Positions 740 through 60,294 of a stretch of 64,000 nucleotides of DNA are shown in pieces; positions within the stretch are counted from its first letter, which is position 1, and each line of letters begins with the position of its first letter. Below the pieces are notes generated by a model. It was not told the DNA's origin. It was given only the letters and a program-made list of their open reading frames with translations, and did no database searches. The DNA lies in NCBI GenBank assembly GCA_036250195.1, contig JAVHZZ010000002.1:364038124-364102123 (forward strand). Reading direction: 5' to 3'. Made by a program: the position numbers and the translations under genes. The stretch is from Mixophyes australis (lineage: Eukaryota > Chordata > Amphibia > Anura > Limnodynastidae).

Positions 740-894
740 AGATCAAAAAGAACTAGAAATAGTCCCCCTAACCAATATCAAGATCCAGATGTCTCCTCTT
801 TTTTAGAGAAGAATCCGGATGTAAGGATCAGGAGTTTCACGCATCCAAATCCCTATCAACCATTGAGGGAAAGAACTCCAAAACGTACAAGGGA

Positions 895-3399
895 TTGGTC
901 AGAGGTAAGAGAGGAGGAAAAAGATATAGGCAGAAGACCGAGATTGAGGTAAATACCGAGGGGGTGTTCAACCTTTCCTCGAAAACACTTAGTAAGTCTG
1001 AACTATCTCTTTTAAGTAAGGGCCTTAATTTTGCTCCCTCAAAAGAACCTAACTTGTTTGAACTATTTGTTGAGCTAAATCGGTTTGTACGCACTTTATG
1101 CAGGAAAAAATATTTTGCTAATAAAAGCATAAAGAAAATTTATTCAGATTTGAGTCCCATTGTATTGGATAGTAGGGATCGTGAATGTCTCCATATACTA
1201 GAAGAGCTTAGCTGTGAGGGTAGGGGATCAATGAGGGATGACACTTCTGAATTGATCTATGATGTTACAAATCTTAATGGGAGGGATCCACCGTTGAAGA
1301 GATTCAAATTGAAGTCAGAATTTTTTCCCACTTCATATAAAGGGCCTCAAATCGAATGCTTTTATCAGTTAACTCTAAAGAATTTTAAGGAGTTATGTGA
1401 GAAAAGTAGATATAGTCAGCCTAATTTAACTAAACTGGAAAGAACAGCATTACAGGAATTCAGAAAGGACTCCACAATTGTCATCAGGGCAGCGGACAAG
1501 GGAGGAGGGGTAATTGTTCAGGACACTACGGATTACATTAGTGAAGGATATAGACAAGTGACTGATTTAGCTTTCTATAAGAAATTACATTCCAACCCCA
1601 CTCTAGATTTCCAAAGAAGTTTAAGGATGCTATTACATGAAGCCCTAGAATCTGGGGTGATTGATCGAGATGAATTTAGATTTTTGTATCCGCTGTATCC
1701 TGTCACAGCGATCTATTATCATCTACTTAAGCTCCACAAAAATGCGGTCTCTCCTCCAGGGAGACCGATAATTTCGGGAATAGGATCCCTGACCTCTTCT
1801 CTCTCCTTTTATGTAGACACATTTCTTCAACCTAGGGTGGTTCAACTTAAATCACACATTCGAGACTCCCTCCACTTATTGAACCATCTAAGAAATTTGG
1901 AATGGGAAGATAACTATGCGTTCCTCACTTTGGATGTAGAGGCTCTATATTGTAATATACCGCATGATAAGGGTATTCAAGTGATTGAACAGCTGTTGGG
2001 AAGAGATTCCCTTGTAGATGATGCACAGGGGAAGTTTATTGTTGACTCCATTTCATTTATTTTAACTCACAATTATTTTCTGTTTGATCACCATTATTAT
2101 TTGCAAATCATGGGTACTGCCATGGGGACCAGGTTCGCGCCGAGCTATGCCAACCTGTACATGGGCTCCTTTGAGGAGGTCCATGTGTGGGGAGGTGGGT
2201 TCGGCGTGGACCTGGTCTTTTATGGGCGGTACATTGATGACCTGTTTATCATATGGAGAGGGGGTGAATCACGTGCACTTTCATTTATTTCTGCTTTGAA
2301 TGACAACGAATACAATTTAAAGTTTGTTGGCCGCTATCATGCATCCAGTATGGATTTTTTGGATATTCAGATGAATGTTGAGAATGGGAAGTTGGTGACT
2401 TCCACTTATAAGAAGAAAGTTGATGTTGTGAGTTATTTACACTACAGAAGTTCACATTATAAGAAATGGAGAGACAATATACCAAAGGGACAGTTAATGC
2501 GACTTAAAAGAAATTGTTCTTCAATAGAAACATTCAATCTACAAGCAGAGTCTATGTTGGGGGACTTTAGAAAGAAAGGCTATCCCGATTATATTTTGAA
2601 TAATGCTTTGAAACAGGTGTCCTCATTAGAAAGAGATACCTTGTTACAGAAAGATGATTCCTATAGGCCTAAGAATCAAAATGGGTAACAAGCTGATACA
2701 AAAGGGCTGGTTGCTTTTATATCCAAATATAATAATAAGTCGGGGGAAATCAGGAAGATCTTTAGTAGGAATTATCCTATCCTTCAACAAGATGAGTTAC
2801 TTCGACAAATATTGCCCCAAGATCCTAAGATTATTTTTAAGAGGAACAACAATTTAAAAAATATATTAGCGCCCAGTTTGGTTCAGGATGTACTGACTAA
2901 AGTGGATATGACATCTGTAGGAGGTGGTTGGTTGTCTAAACAAACAGAAGGCTGCTTCAAATGTGGTTCAAATAGATGTCTAACTTGTTCTTTTATCAGT
3001 AATAGGGTGACTGAGATCACCCATTCAGATAGAAACTTTAGAGTGAGGGGATTTATGAACTGTAGCACGAGTTATGTCATTTATTTATTGAAATGTAGTT
3101 GTGACCTCCTTTATGTTGGAAGAACGACTAGATCACTGAAATTGAGGTTTCTGGAACACAGGAGGAATATCCTAAATAGGAAGACCAATCATAGTGTTCC
3201 AAGCCACTTTAATGCGGTTCACAATGGGAGATTAGAAGGTTTATCTATATGTGGTCTAGAGCATATTAAACAGACCACGAGAGGAGGGGATCGTTTTAAA
3301 AGATTATGTAAACAAGAGGTCTTTTGGATCCATCAACTGGATGCCTTGAGTCCTAGAGGATTGAATGAAGCACTTGAGCTCAATGAGGTGTTGTCCTGA
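895..3399 (+). pseudogene. PLE reverse transcriptase/GIY-YIG protein, one in-frame stop
   Basis: The protein would copy PLE RNA by reverse transcription and cut target DNA with its GIY-YIG domain. From ATG 895 the frame runs to a TAA at 2686-2688. The same frame then continues without interruption to TGA 3397-3399, so one nonsense codon (codon 598) separates the RT from the C-terminal part. Visible landmarks are KGGGVIVQ near residue 203, LDVEALYCNIPH near 345, GTAMGTRFAPSYANLYMG near 405-420 and the catalytic YIDD near 446-449. After the stop come a Cys-rich CFKCGSNRCLTC motif, YVIY near 727 and YVGRTTR near 740. The YIDD aspartates and the GIY-YIG core are intact. A further N-terminal stretch, rich in Arg/Lys/Pro, is open in another frame at 719-952 and overlaps the start, suggesting a frameshift near 900. 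At ~834 codons the length fits intact PLEs. Confidence 0.85.
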
Positions 3400-4108: not shown

Positions 4109-4735
4109 TCGTGTATTCAGCTCCTGCTGATTCCTGTTGTTCGTTTGTGGTTTCCAGACCACTTCAACTCTCCTGTGTTTCATCGTGACTGCACCAGCTG
4201 ATTCCTATCCGCTGCCTCCGTGCTTCTACAGTTTCCAGTCCACTTCAACTCTCCCTTGTTCATCGTGACTGCACCAGCTGATTCCTATCCGCTGCCTCCG
4301 TGCTTCTACAGTTTCCAGTCCACTTCAACTCTCCTGTGTTTCATCGTGACTGCACCAGCTGATTCCTATCCGCTGCCTCCGTGCTTCTACAGTTTCCAGT
4401 CCACTTCAACTCTCCTGTGTTTCATCGTGACTGCTCAGCTGATTCCTATCCGCTGCCTCTGTGTTGCTACAGTTTCCAGTCCACTTCAACTCTCCCGTGT
4501 TTCATCGTGACTGCACCAGCTGATTCCTATCCGCTGCCTCCGTGTTCTACAGTATCCTGCTCACCTCAACTCTCCCGTGTTTCATCGTGACTGCACCAGC
4601 TGCTTCCTATCTGCTGCCTCCGTGTTCTACAGTATCCTGCTCACCTCAACTCTCCCGTGTTTCATCGTGACTGCACCAGCTGATTCCTATCCGCTGCCTC
4701 CGTGTATCTGCAGTGTCCTGCTCATCGCTACCCTC
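4109..4735 (+). repeat. ~80-bp tandem repeat inside the solo LTR, about 7 copies
   Basis: The phrase CTGCACCAGCTG, or its variant CTGCTCAGCTG, recurs at 4189, 4269, 4350, 4431, 4511, 4591 and 4671, a period of 80-81 bases. Each unit also carries CCGCTGCCTCCGTG, TCCACTTCAACTCTCC and TTTCATCGTGACTG. The array is C/T-rich and lies downstream of the TATA-like box, so it would lie in the transcribed part of the LTR. Confidence 0.9.
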
Positions 4736-5329
4736 CAGTACTCCTCGTGTCTGCAGCCAGCTGATCCGCTCTCCGTGCTTCTACAGTGTTCCTGCTTGTG
4801 TCAACTCGCCTGTCTGCATTGGATCAACGTTCCGCTGCTTTCATCTCGGCTAGACCATCTCTACTCTCCAGTGTTCTCCAGGTGTCCAGTTCTATATACT
4901 ACTGCTTCCTGAGTATTGTTTCCATCCTTGCTGGTCTACCTACCTGTGCGCTGCACCTACTTGGTTACCGCTTTCACCCTCCTGGGACTTCGTATCCTGC
5001 CGGCCTCCAGCCGTTCAGGTATCCCTGCACCTCTCTCTGACAGCCTGCTCTCCTGAACCACGGTATGCATACTTCTCATTGACTGTGCTGGTGTATTGCA
5101 TATCTTGCTGGACTGAGTTGTTCTCCTCTGGAGTTTCCTATCCACTGAGACTATTACCATCATTTGACTGTGTTACCTTTTAGCCTGGATAGTTCTTGTG
5201 ACTTTGTATATTTGTGCAGTGCTGCTCAGTTATTACTATTTTGTGCATATCATCGTGGGATCAAGTTCAGTGTGCCCGTGTATACTCTGCATTGCATTTA
5301 TCTCCCCGTGCTCCTCCTCACATATATAT

Positions 5330-19254: not shown

Positions 19255-20252
19255 CTACAAAAGGATTGCTGGGAAATTTAAAATGGTATTTCTTCAGAAA
19301 AGTAGGGTCATGAATATCAGAGTAATCAACTCAAGATCATTCTTTGGGGCCAATGCCCTTCCAATCCAACAAATACTGAATTTTTCCTCTGGAACGTCTG
19401 GAATGAACGATCTGTTTGACTTCGAATTTGTCCCCTTGCTGAGTGCTGATTACAGATGTAGGAGAAGACGAAGAAGAAGAATGATCGATAATGAGTGGCT
19501 TCAATGAAGAGATATGAAAGGTATTAGAGATGCGAAGTGAAGGTGGCAATTTCAACTTGAATGCCACTGAGTTTTTTACTTGAAGATTTTTGAAGGGTCC
19601 AATATACTTAGGTGCAAATTTCATACATGGAACTTTTAAATGTATGTTTCTAGTTGAAAGCCAGACTTTGTCTACCTTTTTCAGTGCAGGAATAGCACAT
19701 TGTTTCTTGTCAAAGAAGATTTTGCAGTACTTGGAGAATTCCTTAAGATTCTTAATAACATTAGACCAAACAGTAGGAAAACCCTGACACAGTTTACTGC
19801 AGGAACTACTGTAGGAGGCAAAGAAACAAAATTTGGACCTAGAGGATAAAGTTCATACACAGTGAAAAAGGGAGTAGAAGAGGAGGACTCATGAAAAAGA
19901 TTATTATGTGCAAGTTCTGCCCACAGAAGTAGTCTGTCCAATTATCTTGAGTCAAACAAGTGTAGATTCTGATGCAATTCTCTAAATCTTGATTTAGTCT
20001 CTCAGTTGGCCATTCGATTGGGGATAGTAGGCCTAGGAATAGTTGAGACGAATATTAAGATATTTACAAATAAATCTCCAAAATGTAGAAATAAGCTGAA
20101 CTCCAGAGTCCGAAATGATCTCCTGAGTTCCTCCATAAAGACAGAAAATTTCTTTGATAAAGATTTTAGCAATAGTTGAGGACGAGGGTAAACCAGTTAG
20201 AGGGATGAAATGGGCCATCCTAGAGAAACGATCCACGGCTACCCAGATTGTG
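19255..20252 (-). pseudogene. Ty3/gypsy integrase C-terminal half with chromodomain, truncated
   Basis: Three minus-strand pieces in order form the end of a pol gene. At 20252-20033, VAVDRFSRMAHFIPL and EIISDSGVQLISTFW match the integrase core, with the second catalytic Asp in SDSG. At 19941-19681, WAELAHNNLFHESSSSTPFF matches the region after the core. At 19624-19337, FAPKYIGPFK and KLPPSLRISNTFHISSLKP are followed by a chromodomain-like YLLDWKGIGPKE. Stops interrupt the chromodomain tail (19255-19337). Protease, RT and RNase H are absent because a different LTR begins at 20257. Chromodomain integrases are typical of chromovirus-type gypsy elements. Confidence 0.85.
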
Positions 20253-27482: not shown

Positions 27483-27652
27483 TTAAATTTATCAAACCTT
27501 CTAAAAAGGAAAAGTATAGGAACCATAGAAACCAAACAGATTTTAGCTATCATTTTATAGACTGTACTAGACAAATGATTGCTAGAATCTGATTAGTTGC
27601 TATGGGCAACACCTCCACTTTTCCTTTTTTAAAAGGTGATAAATCTATCCCC
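27483..27652. mobile_element. Fold-back MITE, ATTTACTAA family, copy A
   Basis: The inverted arms contain TAAATTTATCAAACCTT and the centre AGCTATCATTTTATAGACTG. The right arm holds TAGAATCTGATTAGTTGC, TGGGCAAC and CTCCACTTTTCC. It is the most diverged of five copies (others at 31711, 53248, 55866 and 60117). It has no coding capacity. Confidence 0.75.
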
Positions 27653-29382: not shown

Positions 29383-31370
29383 TCATTTCAACTCAAAATC
29401 AGCGTTGAGTCCTCCAGGTACCAAAGTTTTTAATCGGTAGATCCACCTCATTTCTACCTGCGCCAACCTCTGGAGTGTATTTCTGTATCTCCAATGAGGT
29501 TGGATGCGTTCTATCTCCCAAAATGTAACTATATCCTACGGGTTGCAATGGTTAATCTTTTTGAAATGTTCGGAGAGCGTATGGCTCTCCAAACCTTTCT
29601 TGATATTGTTCACATGCTCCCTTAATCTAGTTTTTAAGGGTCTGGTGGTTCTGTCCACATATATAAGATGGCAAGTGCACTCAATAGCATATATAACATT
29701 AATCATGTTACATGTAATAAACTGGTGTATACGGTAAGTATGGTCCGCAACTGTGAAGTTGTCCAATTTCAGACAATTTGAAGGTTTATTACTGCACATA
29801 CTGCAACTACCACACCTATAAAATCCAGTACTTTTAATCTGTGATGAACCAACATCAAACATAACACTCCTCACAATTTTATCCTTTATGCTCGGTGTCT
29901 TTCTATATACAAATGAGGGTCTATCAGGAAGGTCTATACCTCTTATAGGGTCCTTTTTCAAAATAGACCAATGTTTATAAAAAATATTCTCTATTTGTTT
30001 ATGGGCCATATTATACTGCGATGTAAAGGCCGATTGACATTTACCCTTCCTTTTCTGTAAGGTATTATTTTCTTGAATGGCTGGATCTTTCTTGTCCCAT
30101 TCATGGACCTTGTTAGCAGCTTCACTTAATAAATCTTCTTTATAACCTCTAGATCTAAAGCTTTCTTTCAAGTCATTAAGTTGTTCTACAAGTATATTTT
30201 CCTCCGTACAGTTCCTTTTAAGCCGCTTAATTTGTCCCAAAGGTATATTAGAGAGCCAGTTCTTATGATGGTGGCTATCAAAGTGAACATAACTAGGTCT
30301 ATCCGTAGGTTTCTTATAGGTCTTAGTATGCACTATTTTGTCTTTTATGTACACTGAAATATCCAGAAAAGTCACAGTGGTGGTACTGTAATCGAATGTT
30401 AGCTCTACATTAGACAGATTTGAATTAAGATGTTTGCAAAATTCATCCAAATGGCACTGGGGACCATCCCATATAAAGAAAATATTGTCAATAAAACGAA
30501 GCCATAGCACCAGACTCGCCCCAAAGCCACACAGACCCCTCACCCACTCCTCCTCCCAAAGGACCTTAAAGAGGTTCGCATAGCTGGGGGCGAATCTGGT
30601 GCCCATGGCAGTGCCTATACACTGAATGTAATAATCTTCATTAAATCGAAAATAATTATTATTTAAAATAAATGTAATAGATTCAATAATAAACTCCTTA
30701 CATCCCTCTATCATATCTGTGGTATTCAAAATGTGGGAAACTGCCTTAATTCCCTGGTCGTGTCTAATAATGGTATAAAGTGCACGTACATCGGCAGTGA
30801 CCAGGATATAACTAGGTTGCCATTGGACATGAGAAAATCTATCTAAGAAATGCTTTGTATCTCTCAGATATGCCGGAGTTTTTTGAAGCAAAGGTTGTAA
30901 ATACCCATCAATAATTTCTGACATATTTGAAGTGATAGAGCCTGTACCAGCAATGATCAGTCGTCCTGGTGGGTTGTGAGCGTTCTTATGGACTTTGGGT
31001 AAAATATAGATGACTGGAATTGTAATGTCATCCATCTTTATATAATCATACAGTTCCTTATCCAAAATCCCCTTATCAAGATATTTATCCAATAATAACC
31101 CAAATTTTTTTTAAGATATTACTCGTTGGGTCACTCTTAAGTTTTCTGCATGTACATCCTTCGTCGAGTTGTCTCAAAATTTCCCCATCATAATTACTCT
31201 TGTCCATCACAACCACACTTATCAGCCGGTTTTATTACAATATCTTTATTTTGTCTTAAACTTAATAGAGTCTTTCTTTCTTTATAACTTAAATTCCATT
31301 GTTTTTTATATTGACCTTTTTCTGTAATGGTGTTAATGTCACAGAGGAAATCAAGTGCAGAGTGAGAGAA
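29383..31370 (-). pseudogene. PLE reverse transcriptase/GIY-YIG gene with frameshifts, stop and catalytic changes
   Basis: The largest open piece (31092-29536) carries VTADVRALYTIIRH, GTAMGTRFAPSYANLF, FIDN and a C-terminal GIY-YIG region. Upstream, KDIVIKPADKCG (near 31250) matches the KGGG region in another frame. One frameshift lies near 31210-31217, where a G appears lost, and a second at an A8 run (31105-31112 complement). A TAG at 29536-29538 interrupts the C-terminus, but the frame continues through LQRLAQVEMRWIYRLKTL to TGA at 29383-29385. Two active-site positions also differ from the usual PLE motifs: FIDN for FIDD (codon 30484-30486) and YVDRTTR for YVGRTTR. The gene is dead by several independent lesions. 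Confidence 0.85.
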
Positions 31371-31710: not shown

Positions 31711-31889
31711 GGGGGTAAATGTATCAAGCTGAGAGTTTTCCAGCGGGTTTGAAAAACCAATAAGATTCTAGCTATCATTTATTTAGTACATTCTACAAAA
31801 TGATAGCTAGAATCTGATTGGTTTCTATAGGCAACATCTTCACTTTTCAAACCCGCTGGAAAACTCTCAGCTTGATACATTTTCCCCCC
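31711..31889. mobile_element. Fold-back MITE, copy B
   Basis: The left arm (GGGGGTAAATGTATCAAGC, AGAGTTTTCCAGCGGGTTTG, TAGCTATCATTTATTTAGT) is an almost perfect inverse of the right arm (ATGATAGCTAGAATCTGATTGG, CAAACCCGCTGGAAAACTCT, GATACATTTTCCCCCC). The arms are about 80 bp. The left arm has lost ~30 bases present in the right arm (the TTGCTATAGGCAACATC equivalent). Confidence 0.85.
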
Positions 31890-48364: not shown

Positions 48365-48960
48365 AGCTGGATATGAAGGTGCAGGGGGATGTGTGACAGG
48401 GACAGGGGAGGAGAAGTTGCAGGGGGATGTGTGACAGGGATGGGGAGAAGAAAGTGTAGGAGGACGTGTAACAGGGGAGAAGGTGGTTCAGGGGGATGTC
48501 TGACAGGGACAGGGGAGAAGATGGTGCATTGGGATGTGTGATAGGGACAGGGGAGGAGAAGGTGCAGGGGGACGTGTAACAGGGACAGGGGATGAGAAGG
48601 TGCAGGGGGACGTGTGACAGGGATGGGGAGAAGAAGGTGTAGGGGGACGTGTGACAGGGACAGGGGGAAGATGGTGCAGAGGGATGTGTGACAGGGACAG
48701 AGGAGAAGACGGTGCAGGGGGACGTGTGACAGGGATGGGGAGAAGAAGTTGTAGGGGGACGTGTGACAGGGACAGGGGGAGGATGGTGCAGGGGGACATG
48801 GGACAAGGACAGGGGAGGAGAAGGTGCAGAGGGACGTGTGACAGGGATGGGGAGAAGAAGGTGTAGGGGGACGTGTAACAGGGGAGAAGGTGGTTCAGGG
48901 GGATGTCTGACAGGGACAGGGGAGAAGATGGTGCAGAGGGATGTGTGACACATCCTGGAC
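48365..48960 (+). repeat. ~37-39-bp GA-rich minisatellite, about 15 copies
   Basis: Each unit reads like GTGCAGGGGGATGTGTGACA, then GGGACAGGGGAGGAGAAG. Variants differ in GAC/GAT, TAACAGGGG and short deletions. Higher-order repetition is visible: the run GGGGAGAAGAAGGTGTAGG recurs at 48628 and 48849, and GGAGAAGGTGGTTCAGGG at 48476 and 48884. Long open frames on both strands arise only from the repetition. Confidence 0.9.
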
Positions 48961-49649: not shown

Positions 49650-50007
49650 ATAACTGTTGACTCGCTTCCTCTGCTCCCCTGTGTCCCGGCCGTCACCTTG
49701 ACGACCAGGACGTCACTGCCGGGCATGACCCTACCGTTGCCAAGGCAACGGTCACACGCTTGTGTTTTAGCGCCGCGTCCCGGCAATGGAAGGAAGCCGG
49801 GCGCGTGCGCAAGCTACAACACCAGCCTGCGGGCTAAATAGTTTAAATTAATTAATGATTACACTGGCCTGGGGATCTTTGCAGAGCTAGGCTCTGATTG
49901 GCTACCTTTAGTACTTAAGGCAGGGAGGTCTTAGCCTCCCTGCCGGTTATAGCATCTCAGTGGTTGTGCTGTGCTGACCTGCGTTTAGACACTTGAATTG
50001 CTGATTA

Positions 50008-51490
50008 CACAGGCCTGCAACCAAAAAGCTGTTTTCATAATTTTATCTGATTCTTATGTTTTTTGGTGCGCTGAATTCGAAAATGACCACCGTTTTTTCC
50101 TTGGACATCAGGTATTTTCACAATCGAAATGTGCCTTGGTCAAACAGGTAGCTGGAAATCGCTAAATTTCAAATTTATCATACTTGGGGAAAAAAAACTG
50201 AACATGGAAAAACAAATTTATTTTCACTGCCAGTGCTCCCAAAAACATGAAAATACATGTTTATTGGTCCTGATGGTGATCACTGCATTGTTGAGTGTGC
50301 ATGCTAGGGCCTGCCCGGACATGTTCTTTCATGCATTAACTTGTTCTCTGAATTCTCCACAATCTTGTATTTCATTTCAGTCATCATCCTGCTATTGTCT
50401 GTGTGATTCAAAATTAGTGAAATGCCTCCAAGAAAGTGTGTAAATTCGCCTGACAGTTTCTGTTTCATATGTGGAAAGTTCATGGTGAAAAAGCAGCAGA
50501 AACTGCAGAAACCAAATTGGTATGTGGGGATTTAAAAGTATTGTGTATACTGCTGGGACAACAGGCTGGGTACACCAAATACCCTTGTTTTCTATGTCTA
50601 AATCACTGGAAGCAAAAAAATTGGCCACCAAGAAGTCTAGTTGTTGGTGAAATTCTCAGAGATACATTGGTACCCCCTGAGAAGGTTTTATTACCACCAC
50701 TCCATATAAAATTAATGAAGCAATTTGTTAAGGCACTTCCCAAAGATAGCAAATGCTTCAAGTACTTGGGATCCAAGTTTCCAGGTTTAACGGAGGCAAA
50801 ACTGAAAGAGGGGGTTTTTGTTGGCCCGGATATTAGAAAACTCATATCCAACAAAGACTTCATCAGTTCAATGACTCCAACTCAAAAAGAAGCGTGGGTT
50901 GCCTTTACTGTGGTCATAAAAAACTTTTTTGGAAACCAAAAGGACCCAAATTACAAGGAAATGGTGGAAACAATGTTGAAAGCGTTCCACAAGCTTGGTT
51001 GCTACATGAGCTTAAAAGTCCATTTTCTCAACTCACACCTTGACTATTTTCCTGAAAATTTGGGAGCAGTGAGTGAAGAGCAGGGAGAATGTTTCCATCA
51101 AAATAAATGGAAAGAAGGTGTCAAGGGAAATGGAGTGTTACGATGATGGCTGACTACTGCTGGATGTGGTACAGGGATCTTCCGGAAGCCACCTACAAGA
51201 GGAAAAGCTCAAAAAGAAGTTTAGAGTTTAAAAAAATACGATTTCACAAGCAATCTACTTGAGTGTGATGTTAATTTTGTCGTCACCTGTGCAAATGAGT
51301 TAATATTTTTCATGTAAATAAAATATTTGCGTTAAGAGATTTTTTTAAATGATGACCACCCGTTTGTTCGAAAAACCTGACGTCCCATGACAAAACGGCT
51401 GTTGTTTTTGGATTCAGCGCACCAAAAAATGTAAGAATCAGTCAACTAAACCAAAACAGCTGTCCCAAATTTTTTTTGTGCAGACCTGTG
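50008..51490 (+). mobile_element. 1.48-kb DNA transposon with long terminal inverted repeats, family not named
   Basis: The ends are CACAGGCCTGCA (50008) and TGCAGACCTGTG (51490). The inverted repeats extend about 110 bp with small indels. Conserved blocks include AGCTGTTTT, CTGATTCTTA, TTTTTTGGTGCGCTGAAT and GACRTCAGGT. The target duplication is TTA: GCTGATTA before, TTATTTGC after. Joining the flanks restores an uninterrupted LTR. The interior encodes a broken protein (50422-51262) and has an AATAAA at 51317-51322. A 3-bp duplication with CAC-type ends is seen in the CACTA group, but I cannot place the protein there. Confidence 0.85.
50422..51262 (+). pseudogene. Putative transposase of an uncharacterised MPPRKC-type family, internally deleted
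   Basis: Three pieces lie in three frames. The N-terminal frame from 50422 reads MPPRKCVNSPDSFCFICG (a possible zinc-binding Cys cluster) and reaches TAA at 50535. The main frame 50469-51146 holds VCGDLKVLCILLG (Asp at residue 21), GYTKYPCFLC (Cys 40 and 43), LLPPLHIKLMKQFVKAL, HFLNSHLDYFP and SEEQGECFHQ (about 202-211). The C-terminal frame 51143-51262 reads MADYCWMWYRDLPEATYKRK. From memory, full-length relatives are ~600-700-residue uncharacterised proteins common in arthropods and cnidarians. A few hundred residues between the first two pieces are missing here. Position inside terminal inverted repeats implies a transposase. Asp 21, the SEEQGE glutamates and a further acidic residue could be a DDE triad, which is only inference. 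Confidence 0.6.
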
Positions 51491-51861
51491 TTATTTGCTG
51501 TGACTCTCTGCCTGTTTATTGGACTTTCCCTGCCTGCTCGTGACCCTGACCCTTTGGCCTGTTCCTCGGATTTGCTGTTCTGCCTGTGACCTTGACCTTT
51601 TGGCGTGTTTCATGACTACTCTTCCTGCTTGTGACCCCTGACCTTGGCCTTCGTCTGACCATCCTTACCATCTCCGCTGCTTCCTGTGCTCCAGCTGCGG
51701 TTTAGTATAACGAACCTACACTACTTGGAGTTAAGTCCTGGGGGCATCTGAGTACCTGTGAGCACGTCTAGCTCTACGGGATAGGCGGCTGCTATAGGTG
51801 AAGACTTCCGCCAATCTGTACTGCAGGTTCGTTATCTGACCACCAGCAGCCTAACAATAAC

Positions 51862-53240: not shown

Positions 53241-53247
53241 CAAGACT

Positions 53248-53427
53248 GAGGGCTAGATTTACTAAGCTGCGGGTTTGAAAAAGTGGGAATGTTGCCTATA
53301 GCAACCAATCAGATTCTAGCTTTCATTTATTTAGTACATTCTACAAAATGAAAGCTAGAATCTGATTGGTTGCTATAGGCAACATCTCCACTTTTTCAAT
53401 ACCGCAGCTTAGTAAATCTAGCCCTGA
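53248..53427. mobile_element. Fold-back MITE, copy C
   Basis: It is the cleanest copy. GGGCTAGATTTACTAAGCTG at the left and CAGCTTAGTAAATCTAGCCC at the right are exact inverses. The inner arms TGTTGCCTATAGCAACCAAT and ATTGGTTGCTATAGGCAACA also match, and the centre is TTTCATTTATTTAGTACATT. The arms are about 80 bp, nearly perfect. Confidence 0.9.
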
Positions 53428-54717
53428 GTGTTAAAGACAGACTTTTAAGTATATGGAATTTACTGTGTTTCAGAAACTGCTGTATGTTTAATGGTGAAGG
53501 AGTATAGAAAGGTTTTTTATATGATATTTCTAATGTGTTTTGGGTTGTAAACTGACTTTTCTTTTTATCACTGTATTTTATAAATATTTAAGTGCAAAAA
53601 TGAATCCCTTTCTGTTTTTATTTCCATACTTCTTTTAATCTCATATGACTAGCCTTAGGACAGGTAATCTATAGTGTGGAATAAAATTTGTCAGATGCTA
53701 AATATTTCAGATCATGTAGCTATTTCCTGGATTAGGAAAATTGAAAAATATGCACTGAAAACCCAGGGGCTTGGCATATTTCAAATTGTATATCTTGGAT
53801 GCAGTTTCTCATAAATTCATGTATATATTCATAACATTCTGTAAAGTGTTTGTATCCAAGCCTCACCGTCACGAAAAATGTTAAGAATAAACCTATTTTT
53901 TTTATTAGTCCCATTAACCTTGCTTATAAATATATCCGTGAAAAGGATTACAGTATGTTATCATCTGATTGTTATTTGACTTTTATTTTTGGTGGTCTAA
54001 ACACTAAACAATCTCAGCTCACCTATGGTCCAGCAAAGGTATTACTTTGGCAATAGCACCCCATGCATTGGCTATGGTGCCCAATAGGTTAGCTGAAAAA
54101 AATCAACCACATAACTGCCAATTCATGGATAGGTTGTAAATAACTGAACTTCCATAGCAACCGTTATGACCATGGAAGCAGTCTGCAGGTTTCCATGGTT
54201 ATAGATGTTGCTAAGGTAGATCAGATTTTCACAAACTATATGTTAATTGGCAGTGAACTTTTGAGTTTTGGTCAGACAATTTCAGGCAAAAGACCTTTTT
54301 CAAGAATCGGGTGTTTTTCTAGTAAGTTGTACACAACATAATTAGACAACAAATGTTTTTATTTGCCCCTTTAGAACAGAGTATATTGTGGGTGAATACA
54401 CTGAAAGACAATAGAAAGCTGTTGTTCATATTACCTATTATTATTTCAATGCAAAGTAAGTTATTTCATACATACTTTACTGATAACCTAGTTTCAAGGG
54501 AAGAAGTAACCAATAATAAGAAGACAGAGGTGTAGGACAGAATGTCTCTTACTCATTATCCACACCACTCCCCTTCCTTATAGGAAGTTTTCTTACATTA
54601 TTTTCTTATCAGACATTTCTTTAGAGTACAGGAAGTAAAGGAGCAGGAGTTACCATTGATGCCACTCATGACTTCCAGCTGTGTGTAAATAAATATGTAT
54701 TGTGACCGGATGGGCTT
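53428..54717. other. No recognisable feature
   Basis: Unassigned, AT-rich. Short open frames are without motifs. Confidence 0.4.
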
Positions 54718-55865: not shown

Positions 55866-56035
55866 AGGTATATTTACTAAACTGCGGGTTGGAAAAAGTG
55901 GAGATGTTGCCTATAGCAACCAATCAGATTCTAACTGTCATTTATTTAGTACATTTTACAAAATGACAGCTGGAATCTGATTGGTTGACATACACATCTC
56001 CACTTTTTCAAATCCACAGTTTAGTAAATATACCC
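55866..56035. mobile_element. Fold-back MITE, copy D
   Basis: GGTATATTTACTAAACTGCG and its inverse CAGTTTAGTAAATATACC bound the element. The inner arms hold GTTGCCTATAGCAACCAATC and GATTCTAACTGTCATTTATT. The right arm has lost several bases (TTGGTTGACATACACATC). Confidence 0.85.
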
Positions 56036-58399: not shown

Positions 58400-58800
58400 C
58401 AAATAAATGTTCATGTTATGCCACACAGTGGTGTCCCAGTTCAAGTTATGTCACATAGTGTGCCCCCAATTCATTATATGCCAAATAGCTGTGCTCCCAA
58501 TTCATGTTCTGACAATTAGATGTGCCCCCAATTCATAGTATGCCACATAGATGTGCCCTTTAATTCATAATATGCCACATAGATGTGCTCCCAATTCATA
58601 GTATGCTGCCTAGATGTGCCCCTCAGTCCATAATATGCCACATAGATGTGCCCCCAATTCATAGCATGCCACATAGATGTGTCCCTCAGTTCATAATATG
58701 CCACAGAGTTTTGCCCCAATTCACAGTATGCTACAAAGATGTGCCCCTCAATTCAAAATATGCCACTTAGATGTGCCCCTCAATTTAAAGTGTTCTTCAT
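58400..58800. repeat. 31-32-bp tandem repeat, about 13 copies
   Basis: Units read like TGTGCCCCCAATTCATAGTA, then TGCCACATAGA. Starts at 58521, 58552, 58584, 58615 and 58647 give the period. Together with the terminus at 58160 this looks like a non-autonomous transposon with an internal minisatellite. The right end may be near 58925. Confidence 0.85.
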
Positions 58801-60112: not shown

Positions 60113-60116
60113 TTAG

Positions 60117-60290
60117 GGGTATATTTACTAAACTGCAGGTTTGAAAAAGTGAAAATGTTGCCTATAGCAACCAATCAGATTCTAGTTATCATTTATTTAG
60201 TACATTCCACAAAATGACAGCTAGAATCTGATTGGTTGCTATTAGCAACATCACCACTTTTTCAAACCTGCAGTGTAGTAAATATGCCTC
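60117..60290. mobile_element. Fold-back MITE, copy E, with TTAG duplication
   Basis: GGGTATATTTACTAAACTGC and CTGCAGTGTAGTAAATATGC bound ~80-bp inverted arms containing TTGCCTATAGCAACCAATCA. TTAG occurs directly on both sides (60113-60116 and 60291-60294), a 4-bp duplication close to the TTAA preference of piggyBac/Kolobok-type elements. Confidence 0.85.
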
Positions 60291-60294
60291 TTAG

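Follow-up and report, generated by a model that had tools for sequence, protein, structure and literature searches.

The window analysed here is a 64,000-nucleotide stretch of the genome of the frog Mixophyes australis (assembly GCA_036250195.1, contig JAVHZZ010000002.1, positions 364,038,124 to 364,102,123 of the forward strand). At 50008-51490 it contains an element bounded by CACAGGCCTGCA (50008-50019) and the inverted near-copy CACAGGTCTGCA (51479-51490), which encloses the remains of a transposase gene whose product starts with MPPRKC. This copy is broken and internally deleted, and its present length is 1483 bp. A 559-amino-acid (aa) relative, P0121, served as the reference for aligning the gene remnant. 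The features of the element are as follows.

50005..50007, no strand: left TTA target-site duplication, preceded by A at 50004; read directly.
50008..50126, plus strand: 5' terminal inverted repeat (TIR), starting with CACAGGCCTGCA; ungapped 91-nt repeat and gapped alignment to the 3' end.
50422..50499, plus strand: transposase codons 1-26, MPPRKC and onward, with a CxxC of the N-terminal zinc region; 73% identity to P0121 by tblastn, and translation.
50454..51146, plus strand: 230-aa open frame, with the later half of the catalytic core at 50520-51104 (70% identity to P0121 residues 305-510).
50529-50531, plus strand: second catalytic D, in the 230-aa frame.
50586-50597, plus strand: C(2)C, same frame.
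50700-50705, plus strand: LH, same frame.
51021-51038, plus strand: H(4)H, same frame.
51078-51080 and 51087-51089, plus strand: candidates for the catalytic E, same frame.
51107..51262, plus strand: end of the transposase including the stop codon, in another frame; within a tblastn match to P0014 (68% identity) that starts upstream.
51317..51322, plus strand: AATAAA polyadenylation-type signal downstream of the coding sequence; motif match only.
51361..51490, minus strand: 3' TIR, CACAGGTCTGCA on this strand; ungapped and gapped alignments.
51491..51493, no strand: right TTA target-site duplication, followed by T at 51494; read directly.

A first-pass annotation, made from the letters of the window, had proposed a DNA transposon with TIRs of about 110 bp and TTA on both sides. 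When the two ends were paired without gaps, they matched over 91 nt at 77%. A gapped alignment extended the inverted repeat to 50004-50126 against 51361-51494 and reached a local score of 121; none of 200 shuffles scored above 52, and none of 990 random pairs of window segments above 55. The long inverted repeats were thus borne out, at a somewhat greater length of about 120-130 bp with gaps. Exact matches to CACAGGYCTGCA occurred in the window at the two element ends only; with two mismatches allowed, 11 matches were found against 9.05 expected, which is chance level. Beyond the two ends, the 64-kb window held no further copy of the TIRs and no second copy of the sequence flanking the element, for which the first-pass annotation had proposed that removal of the element would restore a host LTR. 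TTA was present on both sides as proposed, and these are the only bases that the left flank (GCTGATTA) and the right flank (TTATTTGCTG) have in common. Read from this single copy, A-TTA and TTA-T correspond to a 3-bp TWA duplication between A and T, and the element itself begins and ends as CACAGG...CCTGTG, in agreement with the CAC/GTG rule.

Most of the sequence that the TIRs enclose is taken up by the gene. All the encoded pieces listed in the first-pass annotation were located: the MPPRKC start at 50422, GDLKVLCILLG, YPCFLC and SEEQGECFHQ, and, in another frame, ADYCWMWYRDLPEATY. As judged by tblastn, residues 1-26 of P0121 are retained at 50422-50499 and residues 305-510 at 50520-51104, the latter with three short in-frame gaps; past 51104 the coding remnant runs on in a different frame to the end of the protein. 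Residues 27-304, a region that includes the first catalytic D, had no counterpart in the window copy. Because this aspartate is missing, the window copy is a non-working element. Since 1483 bp are present and about 830-870 bp are missing, an intact relative would measure about 2.3-2.4 kb and would encode a protein of about 560 aa that carries a zinc domain at its N-terminus and a DDE core of the RNase H type.

The 230-aa frame, used as a query, retrieved 1263 proteins at E<=0.001, and a longer relative (P0003) retrieved 3445. The closest listed relatives of the window frame were P0014, P0002 and P0001, with identities of 93% (129 aligned positions), 90% (173) and 80% (193) when gaps were excluded, and of 92%, 80% and 75% by BLASTP. 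Organism names were found among the best 120 of the 1263 for Trichonephila (four proteins), Araneus, Venturia, Clavelina and Ranitomeya, and among the best 120 of the 3445 for Trachymyrmex, Trichinella, Diaphorina and Myxine. All 12 organism-named relatives among these 240 rows are labelled uncharacterized, hypothetical or unnamed, and the family is abundant and mostly unnamed among animals, in line with the first-pass annotation, which had named arthropods and cnidarians. A length of 540-610 aa was shared by 88 of the best 120 P0003 matches, and many of the proteins are encoded on contigs of 2-3 kb.

From 234 proteins fetched via the P0003 search, we aligned 47 hand-picked, mostly near-full-length sequences (alignment A1). 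C(2)C, LH and H(4)H were invariant in all 47, and the window copy, with its first D missing, has them as well. The core residues of the family are D308, C327/C330, H483/H488 and E502/E505, and pairs of Cys are conserved at the N-terminus. A zf-AD signal was detected in 28 of the 47 proteins and stayed below the cut-off for P0121; a Chapa model was not seen in the library searched. Pfam listed no above-cut-off family for P0121 and gave no match for three pieces from the window, which are short and broken and make for a weak test.

The mean column identity of A1 is 54%, and such conservation might be expected if the remnant came from a domesticated or single-copy host gene. We consider this origin extremely improbable and rejected it: the gene is enclosed by TIRs and TTA duplications, its reading frame is broken, and the family is patchily distributed among hosts. 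This patchiness is visible in a tree of 28 hand-picked proteins from the same 234 (12 organism-named, 16 without an organism name) and the window copy, calculated over 194 window residues. The window copy joins relatives without an organism name and next a group in which a spider (Araneus) protein sits; the frog (Ranitomeya) protein is paired with one from a psyllid. Several supports are low and most of the proteins carry no organism, so that the tree speaks for patchiness and not for a dated transfer.

The fold of the family protein is predicted to be that of a DDE RNase H transposase, as the first-pass annotation had proposed to check, and to resemble RAG1 and Transib. Its view of the gene as encoding a cut-and-paste transposase is therefore upheld as a prediction for the family, but not for the window copy itself, which is non-working. 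Identity to the RAG1 core (PDB 5zdz and others) and to amphioxus BbRAGL (6b40) was 11-14%. RAG1, which acts together with RAG2, is a V(D)J recombinase of domesticated origin, whereas the window element shows no second gene. Transib (HzTransib, PDB 6pqx) is among the closest known systems and shares the RAG1-like catalytic fold, as predicted. However, Transib makes a 5-bp target-site duplication, and in the window element TTA alone is common to both flanks.

The description of Chapaev3 (Merrow, Garfield and Conan; Chapaev3-1_PM and Chapaev3-1_ET; Zhang et al. 2014, PMC4079192) reports CAC/GTG ends, a TWA duplicated between an A and a T in every member examined there, the motifs C(2)C, LH and H(4)H, transposases of 556-562 aa, elements of 2.3-2.45 kb, and vertebrate as well as arthropod hosts. 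Garfield_BM measures 2,289 bp and encodes 556 aa, Merrow_PM measures 2,451 bp and encodes 78+484 aa, and both Merrow and Garfield have two exons (PMC4079192). Kapitonov and Koonin unite Chapaev3, Chapaev and Transib in a single superfamily that gave rise to RAG1 and in which they describe a Chapa zinc domain (PMC4411706). We filed the element at 50008-51490 as Chapaev3-type because it and its family show the published ends, target site, catalytic motifs, and protein and inferred element sizes, with the conserved N-terminal Cys pairs as at most a candidate Chapa domain; the window copy differs from intact Chapaev3 elements in being deleted to 1483 bp. With high confidence, then, it is a member of the Chapaev3 group with a predicted RAG1/Transib-like cut-and-paste transposase, as judged from the published description. 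In view of these shared features, the earlier label "unclassified" is very probably wrong for this family.

TWA duplication is also found alongside a Harbinger transposase and a Myb-like protein, and TTA duplications are typical of Harbinger. The ends could then stem from this other TWA-duplicating superfamily, with the transposase remnant as a passenger. We regard this as very improbable and rejected it despite the TTA duplication: the CAC/GTG ends and their A-TWA-T surroundings both agree with Chapaev3, the gene takes up most of the space between the TIRs, and the window protein has the C(2)C/H(4)H core of the RAG1 type. The lack of a Pfam match for the window pieces points the same way, within the limits of that test.

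Placement in Chapaev3 is weakened by the lack of an above-cut-off Pfam family for P0121 and of any for the window pieces, by the names of the listed relatives, none of which bears the name Chapaev3 (the 12 with an organism name included), by the comparison with a published description in place of Repbase sequences, and by the low HzTransib rows, which we took as lowering confidence. The first three would suit an unnamed clade of RAG1/Transib-like transposases in its own right, sister to Chapaev3 and outside it. We consider such a clade unlikely, as the target site, the ends and the motifs match the description of Chapaev3, and the size of the protein and the inferred size of the element equal it. 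Similarly doubtful is the broader idea of a large sister clade of RAG1-fold transposases jumping repeatedly among arthropods, nematodes, tunicates, hagfish and frogs, with the window copy as the relic of one arrival in a frog.

Under the preferred assignment to Chapaev3, the relatives labelled uncharacterized are likely Chapaev3 transposases of the same structural family as RAG1. This would give a likely name and mechanism to proteins that public databases label uncharacterized, hypothetical or unnamed, and a searchable model of the MPPRKC family would close a common annotation gap. The first-pass annotation had also raised the question of horizontal transfer. For Chapaev3, transfer into vertebrates is already published (PMC4079192); the patchy distribution seen here would be expected from it, but for this copy a transfer is at most suggested by the tree. 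Very probably, both the kind of element and its horizontal transfers have been described before, and the window element illustrates a known kind well.

From the family, the predicted fold and the footprint, we infer the following mechanism. The RAG1/Transib-like enzyme of intact relatives would bind to the TIRs and excise the element by cutting at both of its ends. The excised ends would then be joined to a 3-bp TWA target between A and T, so that TWA is duplicated. The window copy would have drifted and lost about 830-870 bp, among them the codon of the first catalytic aspartate; as deleted, it could be mobile at most through the enzyme of another copy.

Further searches were made with the protein and the TIRs. 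A PDB sequence search with A1 gave a single chance-level match (E 0.6). The BFVD fold search gave no match at E<=0.001, which is why the published bracovirus Garfield copy is absent from the results. In viral contigs, the window protein gave no match, A1 gave nine pattern matches with none confirmed, and an 18-base TIR pattern gave one match (L001). A 16-base TIR pattern matched at least 119 stretches of genome contigs, but the pattern is too short and these look like chance. Across 120 loci from the TIR-pattern scans, no TIR match exceeded 33 bases, and tblastn with P0121 found no match. Neither a tblastn search of phages nor an Rfam search gave a match. Six short family peptides were not found in print in a literature search, although papers rarely give such strings.

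Other elements lie elsewhere in the window. At 772-3399 (plus strand) there is a likely Penelope-type retroelement, with a 638-aa frame that has a sub-threshold reverse transcriptase match, and after it a 236-aa frame that has no Pfam match and, judged by eye, resembles a GIY-YIG-type end. A second Penelope-type frame (29536-31110, minus strand, 524 aa) has no Pfam match. Its best named matches, at about 40% identity, are from frogs and other amphibians, with Ascaphus, Leptobrachium and Xenopus first, and one coral protein is among the best 120 of 416. These matches point to an amphibian, probably a frog, as the host. At 19337-19852 (minus strand) the end of a chromo-type Ty3/Gypsy integrase survives as a remnant, with a Tf2-1-like SH3 match and a weak Chromo match. 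Imperfect palindromic foldback repeats occur at 53242-53432, 55867-56034 and 60115-60291, and also at 31755-31856 and 27525-27622. Two copies have arms of 87 and 80 nt and 17-nt loops, and a third has shorter paired arms. They are about 80-93% alike between places and are likely foldback miniature inverted-repeat transposable elements. Finally, local repeats, in tandem or overlapping, form three blocks at 48369-48950, 4150-4796 and 58410-58785.
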